Positions 5,639 through 58,374 of a stretch of DNA of 64,000 nucleotides are shown here, in pieces (position 1 is the stretch's first letter; every line of letters begins with the position of its first letter). Origin of the DNA: Nitrobacteraceae bacterium AZCC 2146 (GTDB lineage: Bacteria > Pseudomonadota > Alphaproteobacteria > Rhizobiales > Xanthobacteraceae). A program made the translations under genes and the position numbers. A model generated the notes under the pieces. That model did not search any database. It was given only the letters and a program-made list of their open reading frames with translations, and was not told where the DNA came from. Location of the stretch: positions 3,720,001-3,784,000 of the forward strand of contig JBAGRP010000001.1 of the NCBI GenBank assembly GCA_036924855.1, written 5' to 3'.

Positions 5639-6598
5639 ATGAGCACCAGCAGCACCCCCGACGCCCGCCTTTCCAGCCTGTTCCTCGACATGCTGGCGGC
5701 GGAACAGGGCGCCGGCGACAACACGCTGGACGCCTATCGCCGCGACCTCGAGGATTTCAGCGAATTCGCCGGGCGCGCCAAATCCGGCTTCGCTGCCGCC
5801 GACACCCAGCTGCTGCGCGACTATCTCGAAGATCTCGATTCGCGCGGCTTCAAGTCCACCACGGTGGCGCGGCGGCTCTCCGCGCTGCGGCATCTGTTTC
5901 GCTTCCTGCTCAACGAGCGCGTTCGGTCGGACGATCCTGCCGCGATCCTGTCCGGCCCGAAGCGCGGCCGTAGCCTGCCGAAGGTATTATCGATATCCGA
6001 CGTCGACCGCATGCTGGTGCATGCCAAGACGCTGACGCAAAATCCGGAAACGCCGGCGCAGCAGCGGCTGCGCGATGCCCGGCTGTATTGCCTGCTCGAA
6101 GTGCTCTACGCCACCGGCCTGCGGGTGTCCGAACTGGTGTCGCTGCCGTTGTCGGCAGCGCGGCGCGACGCCCGCATGATCGTGGTGCGCGGCAAGGGCA
6201 ACAAGGAGCGGCTGGTGCCGCTCAACGAGACCGCCAAGCAGGCGATGGCGGATTATCTTGCCGCGATGGCCGAGCTGCAGCGCGAGCAGCCGAAGAAATC
6301 GGCGGTCTCAAAATGGCTGTTCCCGTCTTTCGGCGAGAGCGGCCACCTGACCCGGCAGCATTTTGCCCGCGACCTCAAGGAACTTGCTGCGGCGTCAGGA
6401 ATATCGCCTCGCCTCGTCAGCCCGCATGTGCTGCGCCACGCCTTCGCCAGTCACCTGCTGCATAACGGCGCCGACCTGCGCATCGTGCAGACGCTGCTGG
6501 GCCATACCGACATCTCGACGACGCAGATCTACACCCATGTGGTCGAAGAGCGGCTGAAGAGCCTGGTCCGCGACCTGCATCCGCTGGCGGAGAAGTAG
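5639..6598 (+). CDS. xerD: Site-specific tyrosine recombinase XerD
   Basis: Resolves chromosome dimers at dif together with XerC during segregation. It is 319 residues, with an N-terminal SAM-like core-binding domain (about 10-95) and a C-terminal catalytic domain. The active-site residues are visible: Arg in ATGLRVSEL, the HVLRHAF His/Arg pair, LLGHTD histidine and the Tyr nucleophile in TTQIYTHV. The neighbourhood with aroK-aroB divergent is typical of alphaproteobacteria, which favours chromosomal XerD over a phage integrase. Confidence 0.95.
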
Positions 6599-6612
6599 GT
6601 GCCCACTCTCAG

Positions 6613-6663
6613 GAGTCGTCCCCGCCGCGCGCACGCCTTCGGCGTGCTAGGCGGGGACGACTC
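6613..6663. repeat. Palindromic repeat, family C copy 1 (possible terminator)
   Basis: Arms GAGTCGTCCCCGCC and GGCGGGGACGACTC (14 bp, perfect) around an inner hairpin GCACGCC-TTC-GGCGTGC. It lies between the convergent xerD and methyltransferase genes. There is no T-run. Related copies are at 41203-41318 and 52629-52716. Confidence 0.85.
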
Positions 6664-6677
6664 GTGGAAGGGCCGGC

Positions 6678-7454
6678 TCAGCGCGGCTGCGGATGGACGT
6701 CGTGCATGTCAGCATCGTCGTCGCGCTGCAGCGACGAGGGCACCAGCACCGGCTGCAGCGCGGGAATCAGCCGCGTGCGTTCGCGATGCGCGGGAATGGC
6801 GCGATAGACCTGCTTGGTGGCCTCGACGATGTGCACGCCGGCGAACGGCAGCGCCATCGCCGCGCCCAGCCGTTCCCAGACCATCGCCGAGCGCAGGAAC
6901 CAGCCAACGCCGAACGGCGGCATGAACAGCGCCTCGCTCCACGCCGTCGGGGTGAACCAGGTCTGCCGCAGCAATTGCGTGATCTGCGACCGCGAATAGG
7001 GCCGGCCATGGCCGAACGGCGTGTTGTCGGTGCGGGTCCAGACGCCTCTGCGATTCGGGATGATCGCCATCAGCCGGCCGGACGGCGCCAGCACCCGCCA
7101 GATCTCGCGCAGCAGGCCCTCGGGATCGTCGGACATTTCCAGCGCGTGGACCAGCAGGATGCGGTCGACGGCGGCATCCGGCAGCGGCAGCGAGAATTCA
7201 TCGACCAGGGTGGCCAGCGCCGGCTTGGCGGTCGGCCATTTCAGCACCCCCTGCGCCGCCGGCATGAAGGCGATGCAGCGTTCGCAATTCTCGCGGAACA
7301 GGCCGAGATAGGGCGTGGGATAGCCCAGCCCGAGCACGCGCTGGCCCTCCGCATCCGGCCAGCGGGCGTGAATGCCGCGGTTGATCAGCCGCCGCGCCAC
7401 GATGCCGAGGCGGCGTGAATAGAAGTCCCGGAGGTCGATCACGTCGATGGTCAT
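6678..7454 (-). CDS. Class I SAM-dependent methyltransferase
   Basis: A 258-residue cytoplasmic protein with a Rossmann methyltransferase fold: glycine motif VLGLGYPTPYL at about residue 38, and the motif IV-VI region around VHALEMSDDPEGLL and RVLAPSGRLMAIIPNR. Substrate unknown. The ATG at 7454 begins MTIDVIDLRDFY; a much longer upstream reading frame is rejected because it runs antisense into gloB. Divergent from gloB with about 110 bases between, an arrangement common in rhizobia. Confidence 0.87.
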   Translation of the reverse strand: MTIDVIDLRDFYSRRLGIVARRLINRGIHARWPDAEGQRVLGLGYPTPYLGLFRENCERCIAFMPAAQGVLKWPTAKPALATLVDEFSLPLPDAAVDRILLVHALEMSDDPEGLLREIWRVLAPSGRLMAIIPNRRGVWTRTDNTPFGHGRPYSRSQITQLLRQTWFTPTAWSEALFMPPFGVGWFLRSAMVWERLGAAMALPFAGVHIVEATKQVYRAIPAHRERTRLIPALQPVLVPSSLQRDDDADMHDVHPQPR

Positions 7455-7565
7455 GGTTAGATTTCTACCACGTCGCGGGGTTCCGAGATGCCCCGAATCT
7501 CGCATTGCCGAGGCAGCGTTAACGCCATATGTCAGAGCTGCATCGTTCAGGATCCCGGAGATATC

Positions 7566-8333
7566 ATGGCCGCCGAAATTCGCCTGTTCCCCTGCCTTTC
7601 CGACAATTTCGGTTACCTGATCCACGACCCGCAGAGCAGAGCCACTGCGGCGATCGACGCGCCCGAGGCCGGCCCGATCCTCAAGGTACTGCAGCGCGAG
7701 GGCTGGAAGCTCACCGACATCCTGGTCACGCATCACCACGCCGACCATGTCGGCGGCATTGCCGAGTTGAAGCAGACCTATGACTGCCGGGTCACCGCGC
7801 CCTACGACCAGACGGCTGCGATTCCGCTGGTCGATGTCCGCGTCGGCGAGGGCGATACCGTGCAGGTCGGCGCGCTGATCGCACGGGTGCTGGAAACGCC
7901 GGGCCATACGCTCGATCACATCTCCTACGTGTTCGACAGCGAGCTGGCGCTGTTCGCCGCCGATACGCTGTTCTCGATCGGCTGCGGCCGGGTGTTCGAG
8001 GGCACCTATCCGATGATGTGGCAGTCGCTCAAGAAGCTGCGCGCTTTGCCCGACGATTACCGGCTGTATTGCGGCCATGAATACACCGCCGCCAACGTCA
8101 AATTCGCGCTCGGCATCGAACCGGACAATGCCGCGCTGAAGGCCCGTGCGGAAGAAGTGACGCGGCTGCGCGCGGCCAACAAGCCGACGATCCCCGTGCT
8201 GCTCGGCGACGAGAAGAAGGCCAACGTGTTTTTGCGCGCGGATGAGCCTTCGGTGGCCGCGGCGGTGCGGCTGAAGGGGTTCAGCGCCGAAGAGGTGTTC
8301 GGCGAATTGCGCGAACGCAAGAACAAGTCCTGA
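7566..8333 (+). CDS. gloB: Hydroxyacylglutathione hydrolase (glyoxalase II)
   Basis: Hydrolyses S-lactoylglutathione to lactate and glutathione, the second step of methylglyoxal detoxification. At 255 residues it has the usual length. The metal site THHHADHVGG is at about residue 57, with further ligands in ETPGHTLDH, FAADTLFS and YCGHEYT. The start at 7566 has GGAG 5 bases upstream. Its stop codon shares a base with the next start (TGATG), coupling it to the cupin gene. Confidence 0.97.
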   Translation: MAAEIRLFPCLSDNFGYLIHDPQSRATAAIDAPEAGPILKVLQREGWKLTDILVTHHHADHVGGIAELKQTYDCRVTAPYDQTAAIPLVDVRVGEGDTVQVGALIARVLETPGHTLDHISYVFDSELALFAADTLFSIGCGRVFEGTYPMMWQSLKKLRALPDDYRLYCGHEYTAANVKFALGIEPDNAALKARAEEVTRLRAANKPTIPVLLGDEKKANVFLRADEPSVAAAVRLKGFSAEEVFGELRERKNKS

Positions 8334-8782
8334 TGGCCGGGCAATCGCCCCAGCCAGCGCCCGGCGCAGCCGAAATCATCGCACGGCTGGAGCTTAAGCC
8401 GCATCCCGAAGGCGGATACTATCGCGAGACGTTTCGCGATAGCCGCGCCGATGCCAATGGGCGTTCGGCGTCCACCGCGATCTACTTCCTGCTGGCACGC
8501 CATGAGCGCTCGCACTGGCACCGCATCGACGCGGTCGAGGTCTGGCATTACTATGCCGGCAGTGTGCTGACGCTGGAAATCGCCGACGATCGTGGCGCGC
8601 GCGTGGTCAGGCTCGGCCCCAATCTCGCCGCCGGCGAACAGCCGCAAGCGATCGTCCCGCCGCACGCCTGGCAGGCCGCCTCCACCACCGGCGACTGGAC
8701 GCTGGTCGGCTGCACCGTCGCGCCGGGATTCGATTTCGCGACGTTCGAGCTGGCGCCGAAGGGCTGGGAGCCTTCGGGCTAG
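8333..8782 (+). CDS. Cupin-fold protein (DUF985 family)
   Basis: A 149-residue protein with the DUF985 signature LKPHPEGGYYRETF near the N-terminus, followed by HWHRIDAVEVWHYY, the first cupin metal/ligand motif. The family is a single-domain cupin whose enzymatic role is unsettled. Coupled to gloB by a 1-base overlap, so it may be co-expressed with methylglyoxal detoxification. Its 3' end overlaps the convergent transporter by 4 bases. Confidence 0.9.
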   Translation: MAGQSPQPAPGAAEIIARLELKPHPEGGYYRETFRDSRADANGRSASTAIYFLLARHERSHWHRIDAVEVWHYYAGSVLTLEIADDRGARVVRLGPNLAAGEQPQAIVPPHAWQAASTTGDWTLVGCTVAPGFDFATFELAPKGWEPSG

Positions 8783-9651
8783 CCGCCCTTCCCGATCATG
8801 TCCTTCGCCGCGATCAGTCCACCGCCGGCGATCAAGGCCGCGGCGATCGCAATATTCGCACTCGGCTGTGCGAAGCCGGCGATGATCAGAAATGCAGTGG
8901 AGAGCAGCGGCGTCGCGTAGGAGGCGGCACCGAGCACGCGGATATCACCGCGCTTCATGCCGATGTCCCAGCTGTAGAACGCAGCGCCCACCGGGCCAAT
9001 GCCGAGTGCGGCGATGGCCAGCCACTGGCCGATCGTCTCCGGCCACACAGTGGTTTCGATCGCCCGATGCACCAGGGCTGCGAGCAACGCCGTCACCAGG
9101 CAAAAGCCGGCGACCGCATCGGTCGGCACCGCCTTGAGCCGGCGCGACATCACCGAATAGGCCGCCCACACGAAGGCGGCGACGAAGGCCGCGAGCAGTC
9201 CGGCGATATGGTCGCGACCGAATTCCGTCGGCGCATGGCCGTCGAACAGCAGCACAGTGCCGGCAAGGCCGAGCAGCGCGCCGATGACGTGATGCGGCCT
9301 GAGCCGTTCGCCCGGCAGCAGCGAAGAGAACAGCACGATCAGCAGCGGCCACAGATAGCTCAGCAGCCCCGCTTCCGCCGGCGGTGCGAGGCGCAAGGCC
9401 ATGAAATACAGTGCGTGATAGCCGAACAGGCCGCCGACGCCGACGGCCCATGTCAACGGCGATTGCTTCAACGCACGGATCGCATCGGGACGACCGATCC
9501 AGCTGGCAAATCCGGCCAGTGCACCAATCGCAAAAGTCATCGCCGCCAGCTGAAACGGCGGAATGCGCCCCGTCGCCACGGTCAGCATCGCCAATAGCGA
9601 CCACATCACAATGGCGGTGAGACCGATCTGCGTGGCTGTGCGGGGAGTCAT
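8779..9651 (-). CDS. EamA-type (DMT superfamily) transporter
   Basis: An inner-membrane exporter-like protein of 290 residues with about ten hydrophobic segments in two EamA halves (residues about 10-140 and 150-285). The substrate cannot be read from sequence; relatives export amino acids, metabolites or drugs. I start at the ATG (MTPRTATQIG); a TTG four codons upstream is possible and neither has a clear ribosome site. Convergent with the cupin gene. Confidence 0.88.
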   Translation of the reverse strand: MTPRTATQIGLTAIVMWSLLAMLTVATGRIPPFQLAAMTFAIGALAGFASWIGRPDAIRALKQSPLTWAVGVGGLFGYHALYFMALRLAPPAEAGLLSYLWPLLIVLFSSLLPGERLRPHHVIGALLGLAGTVLLFDGHAPTEFGRDHIAGLLAAFVAAFVWAAYSVMSRRLKAVPTDAVAGFCLVTALLAALVHRAIETTVWPETIGQWLAIAALGIGPVGAAFYSWDIGMKRGDIRVLGAASYATPLLSTAFLIIAGFAQPSANIAIAAALIAGGGLIAAKDMIGKGG

Positions 9652-50347: not shown

Positions 50348-50776
50348 TCACGTCGGAATTTCCCCGAAGGTCTTTCCCGCCGCCAGCGGCGCTGTCCGGA
50401 TCAGCCGCGAGTCCAGCACGGCCGCCTGGCGGTGCTTGACGGCCTCGCGGTAGACGGGATCGCGGATCATCTCGACGAAGGCGCCAACGCTGGGATATTC
50501 GGCGATGAAGCAATGGTCCCAATGCTCGTCGGCAGGTCCGATCAGCATCAGCTCGAAACGGCCCTGCCACACCACCTTGCCGCCGAGCCGGGTGAACACC
50601 GGCCCGGACTCGCGCCCATAGGCCGCATAGGCTTCCGCGCCGGACGCCGGCCGTCCGTCGGGATAGGCGGCGCGGTCGCGCAGGCGCACCAGATTGAGCA
50701 TGTGGATCGGCCCTTCGCGGTTGTTGTCGCGAAACCGGGCGAAGACCTCCTTGGTCGGATCGATATGTCCGCTCAT
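50348..50776 (-). CDS. DUF1330 protein
   Basis: A 142-residue soluble protein. GPIHMLNLVRLRDRAAYPDG and RFELMLIGPADEHWDHCFIAEYPS match the DUF1330 family, which has a ferredoxin-like fold and no settled enzyme role. Just upstream of alkA on the same strand but 87 bases away. Divergent from the DUF1304 gene. Confidence 0.87.
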   Translation of the reverse strand: MSGHIDPTKEVFARFRDNNREGPIHMLNLVRLRDRAAYPDGRPASGAEAYAAYGRESGPVFTRLGGKVVWQGRFELMLIGPADEHWDHCFIAEYPSVGAFVEMIRDPVYREAVKHRQAAVLDSRLIRTAPLAAGKTFGEIPT

Positions 50777-50869
50777 GCGCGCTTGTCCCTGTGTTCGTTG
50801 TCCGCCCCCATTGTTCCGGGTGGCGTGCTACTATAACCGTTCACCGGGGCGTGTCTGGGGGGACATCAC

Positions 50870-51232
50870 ATGACTATCGTCGGCAACATCCTGGTCGCGC
50901 TGGTCGCGGCGCTGCACATCTATTTCCTGGTGCTGGAGATGTTTCTCTGGACCCAGCCGCGCGGCCTGAAGACCTTCGGCAACACGCTGCAAAAGGCACA
51001 GGATTCTGCGGTGCTCGCCGCCAATCAGGGACTCTATAACGGCTTCCTCGCCGCCGGCCTGATCTGGGGCCTGCTGCATCCGTCCCCGGCCTTTGCCTTC
51101 CAGATCAAGGCGTTCTTCCTGCTCTGCGTCATCGTCGCCGGCGTCTATGGCGCCGTCACCGTCAGCCGCAAGATCCTGTTCGTGCAGGCGGTGCCGGCCG
51201 CGCTGGCGCTGGTCGTGCTCTGGCTCGCTTAA
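50870..51232 (+). CDS. DUF1304 small membrane protein
   Basis: A 120-residue inner-membrane protein with four hydrophobic segments and the DUF1304 pattern: HIYFLVLEMFLW followed by NQGLYNGFLAAGLIWG. Function unknown. Divergent from DUF1330 across 93 bases. Confidence 0.9.
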   Translation: MTIVGNILVALVAALHIYFLVLEMFLWTQPRGLKTFGNTLQKAQDSAVLAANQGLYNGFLAAGLIWGLLHPSPAFAFQIKAFFLLCVIVAGVYGAVTVSRKILFVQAVPAALALVVLWLA

Positions 51233-51349
51233 AAGCTAGCCATTTGGCGGCATTGCCTTGCCGGATGTGTTGATCCAGTATCCGCGACAACGATGGCGTC
51301 CGGCAACGGAATGACCGTCGATCGACACAACATCAGGGAAGGCAACGAC

Positions 51350-52573
51350 ATGAGAACTCCGCTTCTTCATCTGTTCGCCGCGTCCACGCTGGCGATTGCG
51401 CTATCGGCAACGTCGGCCTCCGCGCAAAAGAAGTACGACCCCGGCGCCACCGACACCGAAATCAAGATCGGCCAGACCGTGCCGTTCTCCGGCCCCGCCT
51501 CGGCCTATTCCTCGATCGGCAAGACCCAGGCCGCCTATTTCAGGATGGTCAACGAGCAGGGCGGCGTCAACGGCCGCAAGATCAATCTCATTCAATATGA
51601 CGACGCCTATTCGCCGCCCAAGGCGGTGGAGCAGGTGCGCAAGCTGGTGGAAAGCGACGAGGTGCTGCTGACCTTCCAGATCGTCGGCACGCCGTCCAAT
51701 GCCGCCGTGCAAAAATATCTCAACCAGAAACAGGTGCCGCAGCTGTTCGCCGCCACCGGCGCGACGCGCTTCTCCGATCCGAAGAACTTCCCCTGGACGA
51801 TGGGCTACAACCCGAACTACCAGAGCGAAGGCCGCATCTACGGCAAATACATTCTGGCGAACTACCCCAACGCGAAGATCGCCATCCTGTGGCAGAACGA
51901 CGACCTCGGCCGCGATTACCTCACCGGCATCAAGGCCGGGCTCGGCGACAAGGCTGCTTCGATGATCGTCTCGGATGCCTCCTACGAATTGTCCGACCCG
52001 ACCATCGACTCCCAGGTGGTGAAGCTGAAATCCTCCGGCGCCGACCTGCTGTTCAGCGCCTCCACGCCGAAGTTCGCGGCGCAGGCGATCAAGAAGGTGG
52101 CGGATCTCGGCTGGAAGCCGGTGCACATCGTCGACATCAACGCCACCTCGGTCGGCGCGGTGCTGCAGCCCGCAGGGCTGGAGAATTCCACGGGCCTGAT
52201 CTCGACCAATTACGGCAAGGACCCGGCCGACCCGCAATGGAAGGACGACGCCGGCATGAAGGGCTATCTGGCCTTCATGGAGAAGTACTATCCCGACGGC
52301 GACAAGAACTCGAACTTCAACACCTATGGCTACGGCAATGCGCAGCTGATGGTGGAGGTGCTGCGGCGCTGCGGCGACGACCTGACCCGCGCCAATGTGA
52401 TGAAGCAGGCGACCTCCCTGTCGGGCTTCACCACCGGCATCGGCCTGCCCGGCATGACCATCAAAACCTCGCCGACCGACTACCGCGTCAACAAGCAACT
52501 TCAGATGATGAAGTTCAACGGCGAACGCTGGGAGCTGTTCGGGCCGATCATCGAGGATGATGTGAACGGGTGA
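51350..52573 (+). CDS. Periplasmic branched-chain amino acid-type binding protein
   Basis: A 407-residue exported protein. Signal peptide residues 1-25 (FAASTLAIALSATSASA), then a Peripla_BP_6 fold (TEIKIGQTVPFSGPASAYS, GGVNGRKINLIQYDDAY, TFQIVGTPSNAAVQKYL). Start 51350 has AGGGAAGG upstream. No permease or ATPase genes are adjacent, so it is a lone binding protein; rhizobia have many. Ligand unknown. Confidence 0.92.
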   Translation: MRTPLLHLFAASTLAIALSATSASAQKKYDPGATDTEIKIGQTVPFSGPASAYSSIGKTQAAYFRMVNEQGGVNGRKINLIQYDDAYSPPKAVEQVRKLVESDEVLLTFQIVGTPSNAAVQKYLNQKQVPQLFAATGATRFSDPKNFPWTMGYNPNYQSEGRIYGKYILANYPNAKIAILWQNDDLGRDYLTGIKAGLGDKAASMIVSDASYELSDPTIDSQVVKLKSSGADLLFSASTPKFAAQAIKKVADLGWKPVHIVDINATSVGAVLQPAGLENSTGLISTNYGKDPADPQWKDDAGMKGYLAFMEKYYPDGDKNSNFNTYGYGNAQLMVEVLRRCGDDLTRANVMKQATSLSGFTTGIGLPGMTIKTSPTDYRVNKQLQMMKFNGERWELFGPIIEDDVNG

Positions 52574-52903
52574 GGAGCACGGCTTCACCGCGGCACGATA
52601 GTCTCACGACAACACGACTGCCCCTCCACGAGTCGTCCCCGCGAAGGCGGGGACCCGTACGCCGTGCCGGCTGTGGTGGCGCACGGCAGTAGCGGATTGG
52701 CGCAGCGTAATCCGCCTGCGGTTATCAGACTAAATTACCTTGAGCGATGAGAACCGGACGAGAGGATGTCCTCCCACAACGATCTCAGTCCCGAGAGGGC
52801 TAAACTGGCGTTTCCCATTCTGGCTCCGTTGAGAAAATCAGAAAGATCGAGTAACCAAATATAACCACTTTCTTGAGACTCTATAGAGACTTGAGAGAAT
52901 TCT
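52574..52903. other. Gene-free stretch before the DUF5131 gene
   Basis: About 330 bases. It holds a family C palindromic repeat (52629-52716) and then an A/T-rich end with a 10-bp perfect palindrome CTCTATAGAG between two TTGAGA motifs, plausibly the DUF5131 promoter and an operator. No gene seen; a short minus-strand frame at 52735-52983 looks spurious. Confidence 0.5.
52629..52716. repeat. Palindromic repeat, family C copy 3 plus related hairpin
   Basis: GTCCCCGCGAAGGCGGGGAC hairpin followed by GCGGATT-N10-AATCCGC. The first part matches the family C copies at 6613 and 41203. It marks the left border of the low-GC TcmP/DUF5131 island. Confidence 0.75.
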
Positions 52904-53653
52904 ATGGCTGACACATCAATCGAATGGACTGACGCAACATGGAACCCGGTCGCCGGATGCACCGTGCTGAGCGCTGGCTGCACGAACTGTTACGCGATGC
53001 GAATGGCAGCCAGGCTCGACGCGATGGGCGTCGAAAAATACGAAGGGCTCACTCGCAAGAGCGGCGGTAGAGCGGTCTGGACCGGAAAAATCCGACTCGA
53101 TGAAAAATCACTCGACGCGCCGCGCTCATGGTCAAAGCCGCGCAAAGTTTTCGTGAACTCAATGTCCGACCTATTTCACGACGACGTGCCCGTGGAATTT
53201 ATCCGTCGGGTCTGGGGGGTGATGCAGGATACGCCGCGCCATACCTATCAGATCCTGACAAAACGTCCGGAGCGGATGGCTGAAATTCTCAGCGGCCCCG
53301 GATTTTCCGTGCTCCCGAATGTGTGGCTCGGTACAAGCGTTGAGGATGATCGCGTTCTTAGCCGCCTGGATGCGATCCGAACTGTACCTGCTGCAGTGCG
53401 GTTTGTATCATTGGAGCCGCTCATCGGATCTGTTGCTGCCGGTGATTTGCGCGGGATTCACTGGGCGATCGTTGGCGGGGAGAGTGGCCCGCGCTCGCGT
53501 GAAATGAAGCCGGAATGGGTGGACGAGATCGAGTCGATGTGTCGTCGCTCCGGGGTCGCATTCTTCTTCAAACAGTGGGGTGGAAAGAACAAAAAAGCCA
53601 CGGGACGTTTACTTCGTGGGCGAACCTACGATGAGATGCCGCTGCGGGTCTAA
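52904..53653 (+). CDS. DUF5131 / phage Gp37-Gp68 family protein (three-Cys motif)
   Basis: A 249-residue protein. Near the N-terminus TWNPVAGCTVLSAGCTNCYA gives the three-cysteine motif C-x6-C-x2-C; it then shows KVFVNSMSDLFHDDVP and SLEPLIGSV, both typical of the family. The fold is thought to resemble radical-SAM or SPL-type enzymes, but the reaction is unknown. Members are common in phages and mobile islands and are usually paired with TcmP. GC is lower than the chromosome around it. Start has GAGAG 6 bases upstream. Confidence 0.88.
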   Translation: MADTSIEWTDATWNPVAGCTVLSAGCTNCYAMRMAARLDAMGVEKYEGLTRKSGGRAVWTGKIRLDEKSLDAPRSWSKPRKVFVNSMSDLFHDDVPVEFIRRVWGVMQDTPRHTYQILTKRPERMAEILSGPGFSVLPNVWLGTSVEDDRVLSRLDAIRTVPAAVRFVSLEPLIGSVAAGDLRGIHWAIVGGESGPRSREMKPEWVDEIESMCRRSGVAFFFKQWGGKNKKATGRLLRGRTYDEMPLRV

Positions 53654-54506
53654 AAGATGACTTCCAATTCTGGTTGCGAGGCCAATGGCTTCATTCGACT
53701 TATTTGAAATACAAAGGAAGAGCGAAAACATCTGCGGACTCTTGTGAACCGGCAGTGCCAGAGGTTTGAGCACCTTCCCAAATATCGTGCTAAGCCGTCT
53801 TTGAACGTAAGCTTCGAGGCCGCCAGGGTTCAGATCTCGTCGCCGCTCAGGAATAGCACCGAACAAGTCGGCCTCCTCAATGGGGTATAATTCTTCTTCC
53901 CATGCAGATGAGCCGAACATCCGTGTAAGCGCAGCGCGCTTATGTTGGTCTATGTCTGTTAGACGTCTTGTTGCTTGCCGAAATAGTCCAGCAAGTGGAA
54001 ACAAAAACCACACGTCGATTGCTCGTGTCGAAGCAATCGCTTCTAGGGTGGCCCATTCAACCTCCATTCCGTAGGGGTCGAGGAAGACCACAGCTCGTTT
54101 GTCATCCCAACTGTTGGTAGCTATCAGTCGTCGCAGCGCCGTATTGGCGTCTTCTTCCGCGACCACGATCCGCCGCTGAAGATTGATCGCAGCTAGATCG
54201 TTTAGTGCAGCTACGTAATTTCTATTTTTCTCTATAAAAACAAGAAAATCGAACGATGGGCGAGTATCGATCGCAATTTGAGCTGAGCCGCGCCGTCGTT
54301 CGACAATCTCATCGGCTGGGGCCTCAACGAGAGAGGCTCCCCTTCGCACCGTTCGTACCGTTCGACTACCGGTTCCAGCAAAAGCGTCGATGTACCAAAG
54401 GTCTTTAAAATGGGGCCTTAGTGCAACCGTGAAGGCACGCAGATATCCCTCAATGATAGATAGTTTAAGTTCGGTGTGCTGCCCCCCCAAACTCGTGATC
54501 GACCAT
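53609..54506 (-). CDS. tcmP: Three-Cys-motif partner protein TcmP, start out of frame
   Basis: The partner of DUF5131 proteins. From a 7-G tract onward the frame reads GGQHTELKLSIIEGYL, IDAFAGTGSRTV (methyltransferase-like glycine loop) and VVFLDPYGMEVEW, ending at 53609 and overlapping the DUF5131 gene tail to tail by 45 bases. The only ATG, at 54506, gives MVDHEF and then needs six G residues, not the seven present (54482-54488 as C on the + strand), to join the rest. As it stands, initiation would need a TTG at 54490. Could be a phase-variable tract, a decayed gene or a homopolymer error. Confidence 0.82.
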
Positions 54507-55116
54507 CTACAAGCCCCGCGCGGAGGCCTCCCCAGACCCTACAGCGCAGATTGCCTCAACCAACACGCGAGGACAAGATTGAATGCATTTTCCGATGGTC
54601 CACTGGTTGACACGTGCATGATGTAGACTATATTCCTCTCCGTCCTGCTCGCGAGGGGCGCTTCATGAGGCGTTCTTGAAGTGGAGTTGGGATGCGGCGC
54701 CTGCGGACGTGGCTCGCACCCACGGACTCGGGAGGTCGGGGGGAACCGTCCGGGCCCACTACCGAGGCTCTGCCGCTGTGACGGCTGGACGGGTGCGGGT
54801 AAGGCGGGCGAAAGCCTGCCGGATGAGGGACAATTGCCGCTGGCGGATTGTCTTGTCGCCCGTAGCCGGAAGCACGGTCCCTCGAACAGAAAAGCCGCGA
54901 TGGCGCGCCGAAAGGCGACGCGAGCCGGATGTCCGCTGTCGCAGGCGGGCTTCGGCGCGCGACTTGCTACCCAGTTGCGCCTTTCGGCGCGTCATCCCCC
55001 TCGTTTTCGAGGGGGCACACCGGAAGGCCCACTTTGCGCGGCGGCGCGGAACGGACGGCGCGTGGGCGGATTCTGAAAATTTGGCTGTTTGATAATTGCA
55101 TCGGGGAAGTGACGGG

Positions 55117-55217
55117 CTCGTGTCCCGGACGAGATTCGCGACCCATAGCAATGCAAAATTCATGGGCCCCGGATCTGCGAAGCAATACTTCGTATTGCAT
55201 CGCGTCCGGGGCACGAG
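55117..55217. repeat. Palindromic repeat, family E
   Basis: CTCGTGTCCCGGACG at the left and CGTCCGGGGCACGAG at the right (14 of 15 paired), with an inner hairpin GCAATAC-TTC-GTATTGC. Similar repeats occur in Bradyrhizobium genomes. Confidence 0.8.
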
Positions 55218-55261
55218 GCTGCAGTGTACGGGGCTGCAGTGTACAGGGCTGCCGTGTTCCG
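55217..55261 (+). repeat. Three tandem copies of a 15-base unit
   Basis: GGCTGCAGTGTACGG, GGCTGCAGTGTACAG and GGCTGCCGTGTTCCG follow one another without gap. The third is diverged. Directly upstream of the PBP gene; may vary in copy number. Confidence 0.9.
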
Positions 55262-55365
55262 CGGGCTTCGTCCACGCAACCGTTTCCATCCCGTTAACCT
55301 CCGCTTAACGGCGCTTTAAACCGGGAACGCTAGGTTCGCGCATCGAGCGGGCGTGGTGTTTGCGT

Positions 55366-57612
55366 ATGGCGTGGGGCAAGAAAAAGGGCGGCGGACGCAA
55401 GGAGCCGAAGTTCGGGCTCGCCGCATCGCTGTCCGAGCTGCGGCTCAATCCGCTCGACCGCGTTTCGGTCGCAGACGACGACAGACCGAAGAAATCCCCG
55501 AAGCGCGAATCCGGCGGCGACCGGCCGCGCAAAAGCCGGACCAGCAGCAAGGCGCGATCCAGGGGCGGACTTCGCAGCGGCATCAAGCGGCTGTTTTATT
55601 GGGGCGCGGTGCTCGGCCTGTGGGGCGCGATCGCCGTGGTCGGCGTCGTGGTCTATGTCGGCGCGCATCTGCCGCCGATTCAATCACTCGAAATTCCGAA
55701 GCGGCCGCCGACCATCCAGATCGTCGGCATGGACGGCAGCGTGTTGGCGACAAGGGGCGAACAGGCCGGCACCAATGTGGCGCTGAAGGACCTGCCGCCG
55801 TATCTGCCGAAGGCCTTCATCGCCATCGAGGATCGCCGGTTCTATTCGCATTACGGCGTCGATCCGCTCGGCATCGCCCGCGCCGCGGTCGCCAATGTGA
55901 TGCATCGCGGCGTATCGCAGGGCGGCTCGACGCTGACGCAGCAGCTGGCGAAGAACCTGTTCCTGACCCAGGAGCGGACCATGCAGCGCAAGCTGCAGGA
56001 GGTCGAACTGGCGTTCTGGCTGGAGCGCAAGCATTCCAAGAACGAGATTCTCGAACTCTATCTCAACCGCGTCTATTTCGGCTCCGGCGCCTATGGCGTC
56101 GAGGCGGCGGCGCAGCGCTACTTCGGCAAGTCCGCGAAAAACGTCACGATTGCCGAAGCCGCGATGCTCGCCGGGCTCGTCAAGTCGCCGTCGCGGCTGG
56201 CGCCGAACCGTAACCCGGAAGGCGCCGAGAAGCGCGCGCAGACCGTGCTCGCCGCGATGGCCGACGCCAACTTCATCACCGACGCGCAGGCGCAGGCCTC
56301 GATCGGCCATCCGTCCTACAATGTGAAGGCGGTCGGCGCCGGCACCGTGAATTACGTCGCCGACTGGATCGGCGAGGTGCTGGACGATCTCGTCGGCCAG
56401 ATCGACCAGAGCATCATCGTCGAGACCTCGATCGATCCGAAGCTGCAGAGCGTGGCGGAGACCGCCGTGATCGACGAACTCGCCGCCAAGAGCGTCAAGT
56501 TCAACGTCTCGCAGGGCGCGCTGGTGGCGATGACGCCGGATGGCTCGGTGCGCGCCATGGTCGGCGGCCGCAATTATGCCGAGAGCCAGTACAATCGCGC
56601 GGTCACCGCCAAGCGCCAGCCCGGCTCGTCGTTCAAGCCGTTCGTCTACCTCACCGCGATCGAGGCCGGGCTGACGCCGGAAACGATCCGGCAGGACGCG
56701 CCGCTCGACGTCAAGGGCTGGAAGCCGGAGAACTACACCCACCAGTATTTCGGTCCGGTGACGCTGACCCAGGCGCTGGCGATGTCGCTGAATACGGTCG
56801 CGGTGCGGCTCGGCCTCGAGGTCGGCGCCAAGAGCGTGGTGCGCACCGCGCATCGGCTCGGCATCTCCTCGAAGCTCGACGCCAATGCCTCGATCGCGCT
56901 GGGCACCTCCGAGGTGTCGCTCACCGAACTGGTCGGCGCCTATGCGCCGTTCTCCAATGGCGGCATGGGAGTCACGCCCCATGTGGTGAACAAGATCCGC
57001 AACGTCGAAGGCAACAAGGTGATCTATGCCCGGCCGGCGGACGCGCTCGGCCAGGTGATCGATCCGCGTAGCGTCGCGATGATGAACACGATGATGCAGG
57101 AGACCTTGCTGAGCGGCACCGCCCACAAGGCCGAACTGCCGGGCTGGTTCGCCGCCGGCAAGACCGGCACCAGCCAGGATTTCCGCGACGCATGGTTCAT
57201 CGGCTACACCTCGAAGCTGGTCACCGGCGTCTGGCTCGGCAATGACGACAATTCGCCGACCAAGAAAGCCACCGGCGGCGGATTGCCGGTGGAAATCTGG
57301 ACGCGCTTCATGCGCGCCGCGCATCAGGGCCTGACGCCGGAGCCGGTGCCCGGCCTGCAGCCATCAGGCTTCTTCGCCACCGTCGCGCAAGCGGTCTCAC
57401 AGGTCGTGCCGGGACCGGCGCCGCAGCAGCTCGCGCCGCCGCCGCCGGGCTATGTGCCGAGCGCGCCGATCTATAACGGCACCCGCCCGCAACCGGCAGC
57501 GCCAACGCAAGCGGCCTATCCCGGCGCGCGCGCAGCCCCGCAGCCCAACGCCCGGCCCGAAGCGGCAAGCGGATTGGACGGCTGGCTGGTGGAACGGTTG
57601 TTCGGACGATAG
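55366..57612 (+). CDS. Class A penicillin-binding protein (PBP1A-type)
   Basis: A 748-residue bifunctional peptidoglycan synthase. A basic N-terminal tail of about 70 residues leads to a membrane helix at about 80-105, the GT51 domain (IEDRRFYSHYGVDPLG, GGSTLTQQLAKNLFLT) and the transpeptidase domain with the catalytic S-x-x-K in QPGSSFKPF, SLN in AMSLNTVA and KTG in AGKTGTSQDF. The C-terminal tail is Pro/Ala-rich. I use ATG 55366; a TTG two codons upstream is possible. Convergent with the metallopeptidase. Confidence 0.94.
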   Translation: MAWGKKKGGGRKEPKFGLAASLSELRLNPLDRVSVADDDRPKKSPKRESGGDRPRKSRTSSKARSRGGLRSGIKRLFYWGAVLGLWGAIAVVGVVVYVGAHLPPIQSLEIPKRPPTIQIVGMDGSVLATRGEQAGTNVALKDLPPYLPKAFIAIEDRRFYSHYGVDPLGIARAAVANVMHRGVSQGGSTLTQQLAKNLFLTQERTMQRKLQEVELAFWLERKHSKNEILELYLNRVYFGSGAYGVEAAAQRYFGKSAKNVTIAEAAMLAGLVKSPSRLAPNRNPEGAEKRAQTVLAAMADANFITDAQAQASIGHPSYNVKAVGAGTVNYVADWIGEVLDDLVGQIDQSIIVETSIDPKLQSVAETAVIDELAAKSVKFNVSQGALVAMTPDGSVRAMVGGRNYAESQYNRAVTAKRQPGSSFKPFVYLTAIEAGLTPETIRQDAPLDVKGWKPENYTHQYFGPVTLTQALAMSLNTVAVRLGLEVGAKSVVRTAHRLGISSKLDANASIALGTSEVSLTELVGAYAPFSNGGMGVTPHVVNKIRNVEGNKVIYARPADALGQVIDPRSVAMMNTMMQETLLSGTAHKAELPGWFAAGKTGTSQDFRDAWFIGYTSKLVTGVWLGNDDNSPTKKATGGGLPVEIWTRFMRAAHQGLTPEPVPGLQPSGFFATVAQAVSQVVPGPAPQQLAPPPPGYVPSAPIYNGTRPQPAAPTQAAYPGARAAPQPNARPEAASGLDGWLVERLFGR

Positions 57613-57618
57613 ACCGGT

Positions 57619-58374
57619 TCAGTCCTGCACGCCGTAGCGATGCAGGTCGTTGCCGTGGGTGTCGAGCCAGGTCTTGGCGCGTTCGACGGCGCCGCAGATC
57701 TTCGCCACCACTTTCCAGAACTTGGGCGAGTGGTTCATCTCGACCAGATGCGCGACTTCGTGCGCGGCGAGGTAATCCAGCACGTAAGGCGGCGCGAGGA
57801 TCAGGCGCCACGAGAACGACAGCGATCCCGCCGAGGTGCACGAGCCCCAGCGGCTCGACTGGTCGCGGATCGAGAGCCGCTTCACCCTGACGTTCAGCGC
57901 CTCGGCATAATACTGCGATGCCTTCTGCAGGTCCTTGCGGGCCTCGCGCTTGAGGAAATCATGAATGCGGCGATCGATGTGCTCAGCTTCGCCGGCAACG
58001 CACAGGATCTTCTCGCCGCTGTCGCGCGTCTCCGTCCACACCGTGCCGCGGACGCCTGCGCGATGCACGATGCGATGCGGCGTGCCGCGCAACGGCACCA
58101 CGGTTCCCGACTGAAACGGCTCTGCCTTCGGCAAACGACCAAGACGCGCGGCGATCCAGGCGCCGTGACGCTGTGCAAAGTCCTTGGCGTCAATCAGCGT
58201 GCCACGCGGCGGCATTGTCAGGATCGCTTCGCGATCGCTCGGATGAATGCGCAGCGTGTAACGCCGCGCGCGGCGGTGTCGCCGCAATCGAATTGAGAAG
58301 ATTTGCGAGCCATGCTTGACGGCAAGCGTGAGAGGTTCAGCGGGGCGACGGTAAAGAAGTGCGCGGAAGGCCAT
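57619..58374 (-). CDS. YgjP-type (M48/DUF45) metallopeptidase
   Basis: A 251-residue protein with HEVAHL in LAAHEVAHLVEMNHSPKFW, a zinc-binding HExxH plus a downstream His, as in YgjP/SprT-like DUF45 proteins. SSRWGSCTSAGSLSFSWRL precedes it, also a family hallmark. Start at 58374 (MAFRALLYRR); the frame open further upstream lacks support. Substrate unknown. Confidence 0.88.
   Translation of the reverse strand: MAFRALLYRRPAEPLTLAVKHGSQIFSIRLRRHRRARRYTLRIHPSDREAILTMPPRGTLIDAKDFAQRHGAWIAARLGRLPKAEPFQSGTVVPLRGTPHRIVHRAGVRGTVWTETRDSGEKILCVAGEAEHIDRRIHDFLKREARKDLQKASQYYAEALNVRVKRLSIRDQSSRWGSCTSAGSLSFSWRLILAPPYVLDYLAAHEVAHLVEMNHSPKFWKVVAKICGAVERAKTWLDTHGNDLHRYGVQD

Follow-up and report, generated by a model that had tools for sequence, protein, structure and literature searches.

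Convergent TcmP and DUF5131 genes of a Nitrobacteraceae bacterium form a recurrent mobile pair with predicted SAM-enzyme folds and a possible anti-phage role

Why should the genes for a TcmP protein and a DUF5131 protein travel together, and what might their products do? The question is raised by a locus in a 64,000-nucleotide stretch of the Nitrobacteraceae bacterium AZCC 2146 genome (contig JBAGRP010000001.1, positions 3,720,001 to 3,784,000), referred to here as the window; the host genome (7.64 Mb, one contig) holds a single match to each family. As the first-pass annotation had described, the two open reading frames (ORFs) are convergent and overlap, sharing exactly 45 bp in the ORF listing. 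Its term ‘low GC' holds relative to the window only, because DUF5131 has a G+C content of 0.576 and TcmP, outside the overlap, one of 0.510, compared with 0.636 for the window. The features of the locus, in window coordinates, are as follows (SAM, S-adenosylmethionine; aa, amino acids).

52904..53653, plus strand: DUF5131 gene (PADLOC PDC-M41B), 249 aa; predicted radical-SAM-type barrel
53609..54490, minus strand: TcmP gene (PADLOC PDC-M41A), 293 aa from TTG; predicted RlmJ/Trm1-like methyltransferase fold
53609..53653, no strand: convergent overlap of both genes, 45 bp; overlap also in 103 of 109 convergent pairs elsewhere
52958..52990, plus strand: codons of C19, C26 and C29 (C-x6-C-x2-C), invariant in 60 aligned homologues; C-x6-C-x2-C-Y-A in 141 of 142 DUF5131 sequences
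54368..54388, minus strand: TcmP motif I DAFAGTG, residues 35-41, presumed SAM-binding loop; D35, F37 and G39 invariant in 65 homologues; motif in 136 of 138
54068..54079, minus strand: TcmP motif IV DPYG, residues 138-141, presumed catalytic; D138 and P139 invariant in 65 homologues; [LI]DP[YF]G in 131 of 138; aligned on RlmJ DPPY
54482..54506, minus strand: irregular TcmP 5' end, with ATG 54504-54506 out of frame, seven G at 54482-54488, and the frame open from TTG 54488-54490
52576..54625, no strand: segment with the pair, unlike the nearest relative (G008), which has 1,234 unrelated bp there

The two genes do form a module: it is mobile, and its members are nearly always found together. 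A search of 296 genomes of the window's family found TcmP in 60 and DUF5131 in 94, and DUF5131 lay within 3 kb of TcmP at 61 of 64 places (66 rows, two second fragments of split genes being omitted); the three unpaired places are partial TcmP matches. Likewise, the partner was present at 77 of the best 80 of 558 confirmed loci in the GTDB collection and at 67 of 73 viral loci, so that the proposed recurrence of the partnership in phages and chromosomes is borne out, and the lack of co-occurrence that would speak against it was seen in none of the three sets. The 61 family places comprise 36 tandem pairs with DUF5131 first, 7 tandem pairs with TcmP first and 18 convergent pairs; more widely, convergent, divergent and both tandem arrangements occur, the non-convergent ones mostly without overlap, and because gene order varies, a shared operon is not enough to explain the bond. 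Among the convergent pairs, five of the six without overlap are more than 1 kb apart, and a Synechococcus phage carries the same convergent design with an overlap of 46 bp. The overlap counts of convergent pairs and the comparison of protein distances cover 130 loci, each with a single TcmP (250-345 aa) and a single DUF5131 (235-310 aa), of which 114 are non-redundant. Across these 114 pairs, the TcmP and DUF5131 distances were correlated (Mantel r 0.552; none of 2000 permutations reached this value, the highest being 0.171), a figure that still includes the contribution of host ancestry.

Pairing with TcmP followed the length of the DUF5131 match: 39 of 41 matches of 690-735 nt and 19 of 22 of middle length were paired, compared with none of 26 above 840 nt and 2 of 22 fragments. 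Because the short form is paired and the long form is not, the label ‘Gp37/Gp68' covers at least two populations. In a mycobacteriophage, one long DUF5131 gene that lacks a TcmP partner (L276, 3489-4517) is annotated ‘methyltransferase' and lies upstream of DprA-, DnaQ- and RepA-like genes. DUF5131 was found in 161 of 50,697 phage records and TcmP, by the same method, in at least 2, the latter being a lower bound because gp43 of Gordonia phage Fairfaxidum was missed; sequence data yielded at least 8,000 scored DUF5131 candidates and 2,055 TcmP proteins. On plasmids, the pair lies near or directly beside a site-specific integrase in Agrobacterium and Pseudomonas (L277, 3639-9895; L278, 1926-5083), and in Rhizobium (L095) a convergent pair (7938-9595, 25 bp overlap) adjoins an ORF at 5832-7685 that, by eye, looks like a reverse transcriptase.

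The product of 52904-53653 is a DUF5131 protein (Pfam, E 5e-96) that also matches PADLOC PDC-M41B (353 bits) and PDC-M30B (326 bits), PHROG 2045 (function unknown) and, at 72 bits and thus below the cut-off of 355, TIGR04471 (radical SAM mobile pair A). The three-Cys motif that had been noticed in this Gp37/Gp68-type protein was confirmed at residues 19, 26 and 29. The confident predicted model contains a partial TIM barrel, and radical SAM entries head its list of structural matches, with spore photoproduct lyase (SPL) at the top and viperin about 2 Z lower; ranked by Foldseek E-value, MiaB came first and SPL second, these matches being weak, with none below E 0.001. A sequence search for a solved relative gave none from the single sequence, and the profile search returned only an unrelated ribosomal protein (E 0.51), which was rejected. 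DUF5131 is predicted to adopt a radical-SAM-type fold and may bind a cluster and use SAM; we call it ‘radical-SAM-like' rather than a superfamily member because it departs from the canonical C-x3-C-x2-C. Some radical SAM enzymes have other Cys spacings. Directly before the gene stands an imperfect palindrome (52871-52896), possibly an operator; by eye, a sequence much like it stands before the DUF5131 gene of an Afipia metagenome-assembled genome (L101). No Rfam match at gathering score was found within 50500-57700 that would place a structured RNA in the pair.

The product of 53609-54490 is TcmP (NCBIfam TIGR04474, 170 bits against a curated cut-off of 53), with matches to PADLOC PDC-M41A (248 bits) and, weakly, PDC-M30A (23 bits), and none in PHROG. 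The FAGTG loop (residues 37-41) and DPYG were rightly taken as methyltransferase-like: the confident predicted model has the overall RlmJ/DUF519 fold, and the structures nearest to it are rRNA and tRNA methyltransferases, not small-molecule ones. Searches for a solved relative gave one weak methyltransferase from the single sequence (E 0.014) and RlmJ from the profile, with DPYG falling on the RlmJ DPPY. An RlmJ/Trm1-like methyltransferase fold is predicted for TcmP, which probably uses SAM; as far as predictions go, a fold offering neither a SAM-binding nor a cluster-binding site, which would have spoken against the proposal, was not seen. The start of the gene is irregular. The start codon of its relatives corresponds to the ATG ending at 54506, where the first-pass annotation had placed the end of the gene; in the window this ATG leads to a stop after 13 residues and the TcmP frame is open only from the TTG at 54490, beside the run of G, while the frame is open through this region in the 12 relatives checked. 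The window TcmP is therefore not one clean ATG-started gene, and the irregularity may be a sequencing error, a genuine weak start or a sign of a damaged gene.

The pair is not new in kind, because PADLOC already lists it as candidate PDC-M41, with the same two components, here adjacent and overlapping, and no structural difference; PDC-M41, like its sister PDC-M30, is a candidate name only. The pair is therefore not unremarked, but in the passages of the open literature that name these families we saw no biochemistry, in line with the earlier statement that no biochemical role is established. TcmP shares its fold with RlmJ (DUF519; N6-methyltransferase of 23S rRNA A2030; 14-18% identity in structural alignments) and aligns structurally with Trm1 (tRNA guanine N2) at 10% identity. 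Unlike these enzymes, TcmP is not housekeeping and always travels with a three-Cys protein, and its DPYG differs from RlmJ motif IV. SPL, a radical SAM DNA repair enzyme with 13% identity to DUF5131, has C-x3-C-x2-C, whereas DUF5131 has C-x6-C-x2-C and an obligate methyltransferase-like partner. The radical SAM mobile pair A/B (TIGR04471, TIGR04470) resembles the pair through the 72-bit match and through the substitute partners described below, but its cut-offs (355 and 410 bits) are far above the scores of the pair, and the partner here is TcmP.

The three-Cys subunit can itself be replaced. Among the six viral exceptions to pairing, two lie at contig edges or yield no TcmP ORF, and four (L222, L225, L227 and L249) have two TcmP-like genes together with a 252-254 aa C-x3-C-x3-C protein. 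Substitute partners match TIGR04470 below its cut-off, those of L222 and L225 match radical-SAM models, and an alignment of the L225 protein to the DUF5131 profile (probability 99, E 2e-18) keeps the Cys regions in register; viral L224, counted as paired, likewise has C-x3-C-x3-C. The large genes after the three-Cys genes of L225, L227 and L249 are read as type III restriction-modification, a reading supported for one of them by an adenine-methyltransferase match (E 4.5e-6). On a Nostoc plasmid, TcmP adjoins BREX genes and a protein annotated as radical SAM; the case for this swap is weaker than for those in phages because the alignment to the DUF5131 profile is confined to the surroundings of the Cys motif (22 columns, probability 34). 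If the three-Cys subunit is exchangeable between distantly related families, the module would be defined as TcmP plus some radical-SAM partner. Two different TcmP genes with one DUF5131 were observed at L093, L133, L144, L152, L153, L161 and L170; in the longer TcmP type, DP[YF]G is often replaced by DQCG, DQYG or DQFG, and such loci perhaps encode a heteromer with one altered subunit.

The chromosomal setting was compared across the genus. The slot lies between a substrate-binding-protein gene and a penicillin-binding-protein gene, and its contents differ among genomes and are often low in GC. In G008, the nearest genome, the flanking genes are 96-99% identical and the repeat between them 84%, while the 1,234 bp in place of 52576-54625 lack detectable similarity, which supports a recent gain of the pair at this site. 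The same slot holds the pair in G012, and G014 has two pairs elsewhere. Joint transfer had been proposed from overlap and A/T richness; the overlap by itself does not show it, since tandem and divergent pairs exist as well, mostly without overlap. Neither a tRNA nor a tmRNA is present anywhere in the window that would indicate insertion at a tRNA site, and none of the repeats found was convincing as a terminal repeat of a cassette. A dispersed repeat (54607-55071) borders the cargo, with 22 matches in its own genome including itself (query 54600-55300), and is conserved beside the slot in 11 aligned relatives; it begins with a promoter-like TTGACA-N16-TATATT at 54607, its consensus structure has 105 pairs, 22 of them with changes on both sides, and Rfam gave nothing for it up to E 5. 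It is possibly an undescribed repeated RNA.

Ten ORFs of the slot, picked beforehand as defence-looking in 6 of the 12 genomes of the genus that have cargo sequence there, were scanned with PADLOC, and four of the six genomes gave strong matches: a PifA-like KAP protein (G005, 1e-99), a PDC-S14 protein (G016, 2e-77), a CBASS cyclase with 2TM effectors (G003, 2.6e-104 and 3.7e-68) and an AbiU-like AIPR (G011, 1.2e-35); G010 gave only one weak match and G014 none. Similar company is found elsewhere. Fairfaxidum carries the pair between integrase and immunity repressor (11 bp overlap; gp43 is a TcmP relative with probability 97 and E 1.8e-10). In another Gordonia phage, the repressor-linked genes 43 and 44 are reported as a tested defence system (PMC6426606); as far as the passages on these genes go, no sequence kinship to the pair was seen. 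S. meliloti pSymA has, in order, an 845-aa PDC-S28 helicase, TcmP, a second TcmP and DUF5131; we take the helicase to be hna, and the protein beyond DUF5131 matches GapS1 below its cut-off. A table in the NolR paper lists SMa2243 (TcmP) directly after hna (PMC12445080). From 54 of the 80 loci (26 being too short on one side, without the partner or duplicates) 324 neighbours were chosen, and the nearest 216 were scanned; among 25 of the 45 families, tallied per family and not per protein, were type III restriction-modification, CBASS, DrmD, Hma, DUF1156/PLD-helicase/DUF499, dCTPase, HEC-05 and mad3 (two), compared with one HerA and two mad3 among 94 ORFs taken as a control from 20 arbitrarily chosen stretches of related genomes. 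The stronger notion that the pair is always in defence islands was ruled out, as strong matches were few, though more varied than in the control.

Regulation points elsewhere. The alphaproteobacterial LexA box has the form GTTC-N7-GTTC, and such a box was found upstream of DUF5131 at 17 of 77 genome loci compared with 13 of 324 neighbour ORFs (p 2e-6), and in 13 of 74 non-redundant 150-bp upstream regions, where shuffles that keep base content only gave a mean of 0.26 and a maximum of 3. Relative to the same neighbours, viral DUF5131 genes showed a slight excess (6 of 67), and TcmP genes were not clearly enriched (genome 4 of 87, viral 7 of 79). The E. coli-type box CTG-N10-CAG was not enriched, and the region upstream of the window DUF5131 has no LexA-type box. 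In M. tuberculosis treated with mitomycin C, Rv2734, Rv2735c, recX and recA appear as one cluster of differentially expressed genes (PMC5057432), and Rv2735c is described as at least partly co-transcribed with recA (PMC3062782). A TcmP domain is reported in BCG_2748c (PMC7387457), and if this protein is the orthologue of Rv2735c, the latter would be a TcmP.

We read the pair as a mobile module of two enzymes that modify nucleic acid, most likely against phages, and give this reading about an even chance of being right. It is based on how regularly the two genes are paired, on their conserved sites and predicted folds, and on the gain at a slot where known defence genes also occur. From these we infer that DUF5131 would hold an iron-sulphur cluster on Cys19, Cys26 and Cys29 and direct SAM-driven radical chemistry at a nucleic-acid base, that TcmP would use a second SAM to methylate a base amino group in DNA or RNA, that a common target would make the two enzymes cooperate and hence travel as a pair in any gene order, and that phages would be the reason for keeping them. 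Several observations pull the other way: the pair includes no nuclease or toxin, DUF5131 lacks the canonical Cys spacing, most of the 216 neighbours have no strong PADLOC match, the irregular start may impair the window TcmP, and no phage assay or biochemistry of the pair was found in the open literature under the family names. Moreover, the SOS boxes, the mycobacterial recA-recX link and the SPL fold fit DNA repair equally well or better. The function first suggested for the locus, defence or DNA/RNA modification, gains from the defence setting and the SAM-enzyme folds, with repair as a live rival.

In that rival, a mobile repair or damage-tolerance pair, induced by damage, would use an SPL-like enzyme to reverse or process a base lesion with TcmP as partner methyltransferase. 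We consider it improbable on balance yet serious: the three lines of evidence just named favour it, whereas most copies, including that of the window, have no LexA-type box, the patchy occurrence (60 of 296 genomes) and the defence company are unlike housekeeping repair, and Rv2735c would be a TcmP only by way of a presumed orthology with BCG_2748c. The setting is best read as anti-phage and the regulation and SPL-like fold as repair, and the two are not exclusive. That phages or prophages use the pair to mark their own DNA or RNA against host restriction, with occasional capture by chromosomes, agrees with the 73 viral loci and the Synechococcus and Gordonia copies, but we think it quite unlikely, as the pair is common in chromosomes without other phage genes, as in the window, and the Gordonia pair sits in the lysogeny region rather than in a replication module, where the unpaired long DUF5131 is found. 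Production of a modified nucleotide or other small molecule that stops phage replication, in the manner of viperin, is very doubtful given the higher rank of SPL and the rRNA and tRNA methyltransferases nearest to TcmP. Slightly less credible still is a toxin-antitoxin arrangement, with one enzyme harming a cellular target and the other shielding it; a small mobile cassette of two genes that are almost always paired, whatever their order, would suit it, but enzyme-type conserved sites are kept in both proteins in nearly all copies.

Within the reading as an anti-phage modification module, a more specific and more tentative proposal is that of a nuclease-free immune module of two SAM enzymes, in which a non-canonical radical-SAM enzyme and a base methyltransferase might together add a hypermodified base to invading nucleic acid or remove one from it, damage-induced in some hosts and with a three-Cys subunit exchangeable between distant families. 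We know of no close counterpart of phage defence by joint radical and methyl-transfer base chemistry; if the reading is true, the enzymology, not the kind of system, would be new. DUF5131 and TcmP are common in sequence data and rarely named in the open literature, and the folds, conserved residues, partner exchange and SOS-type boxes described here make their ‘unknown function' specifically testable.
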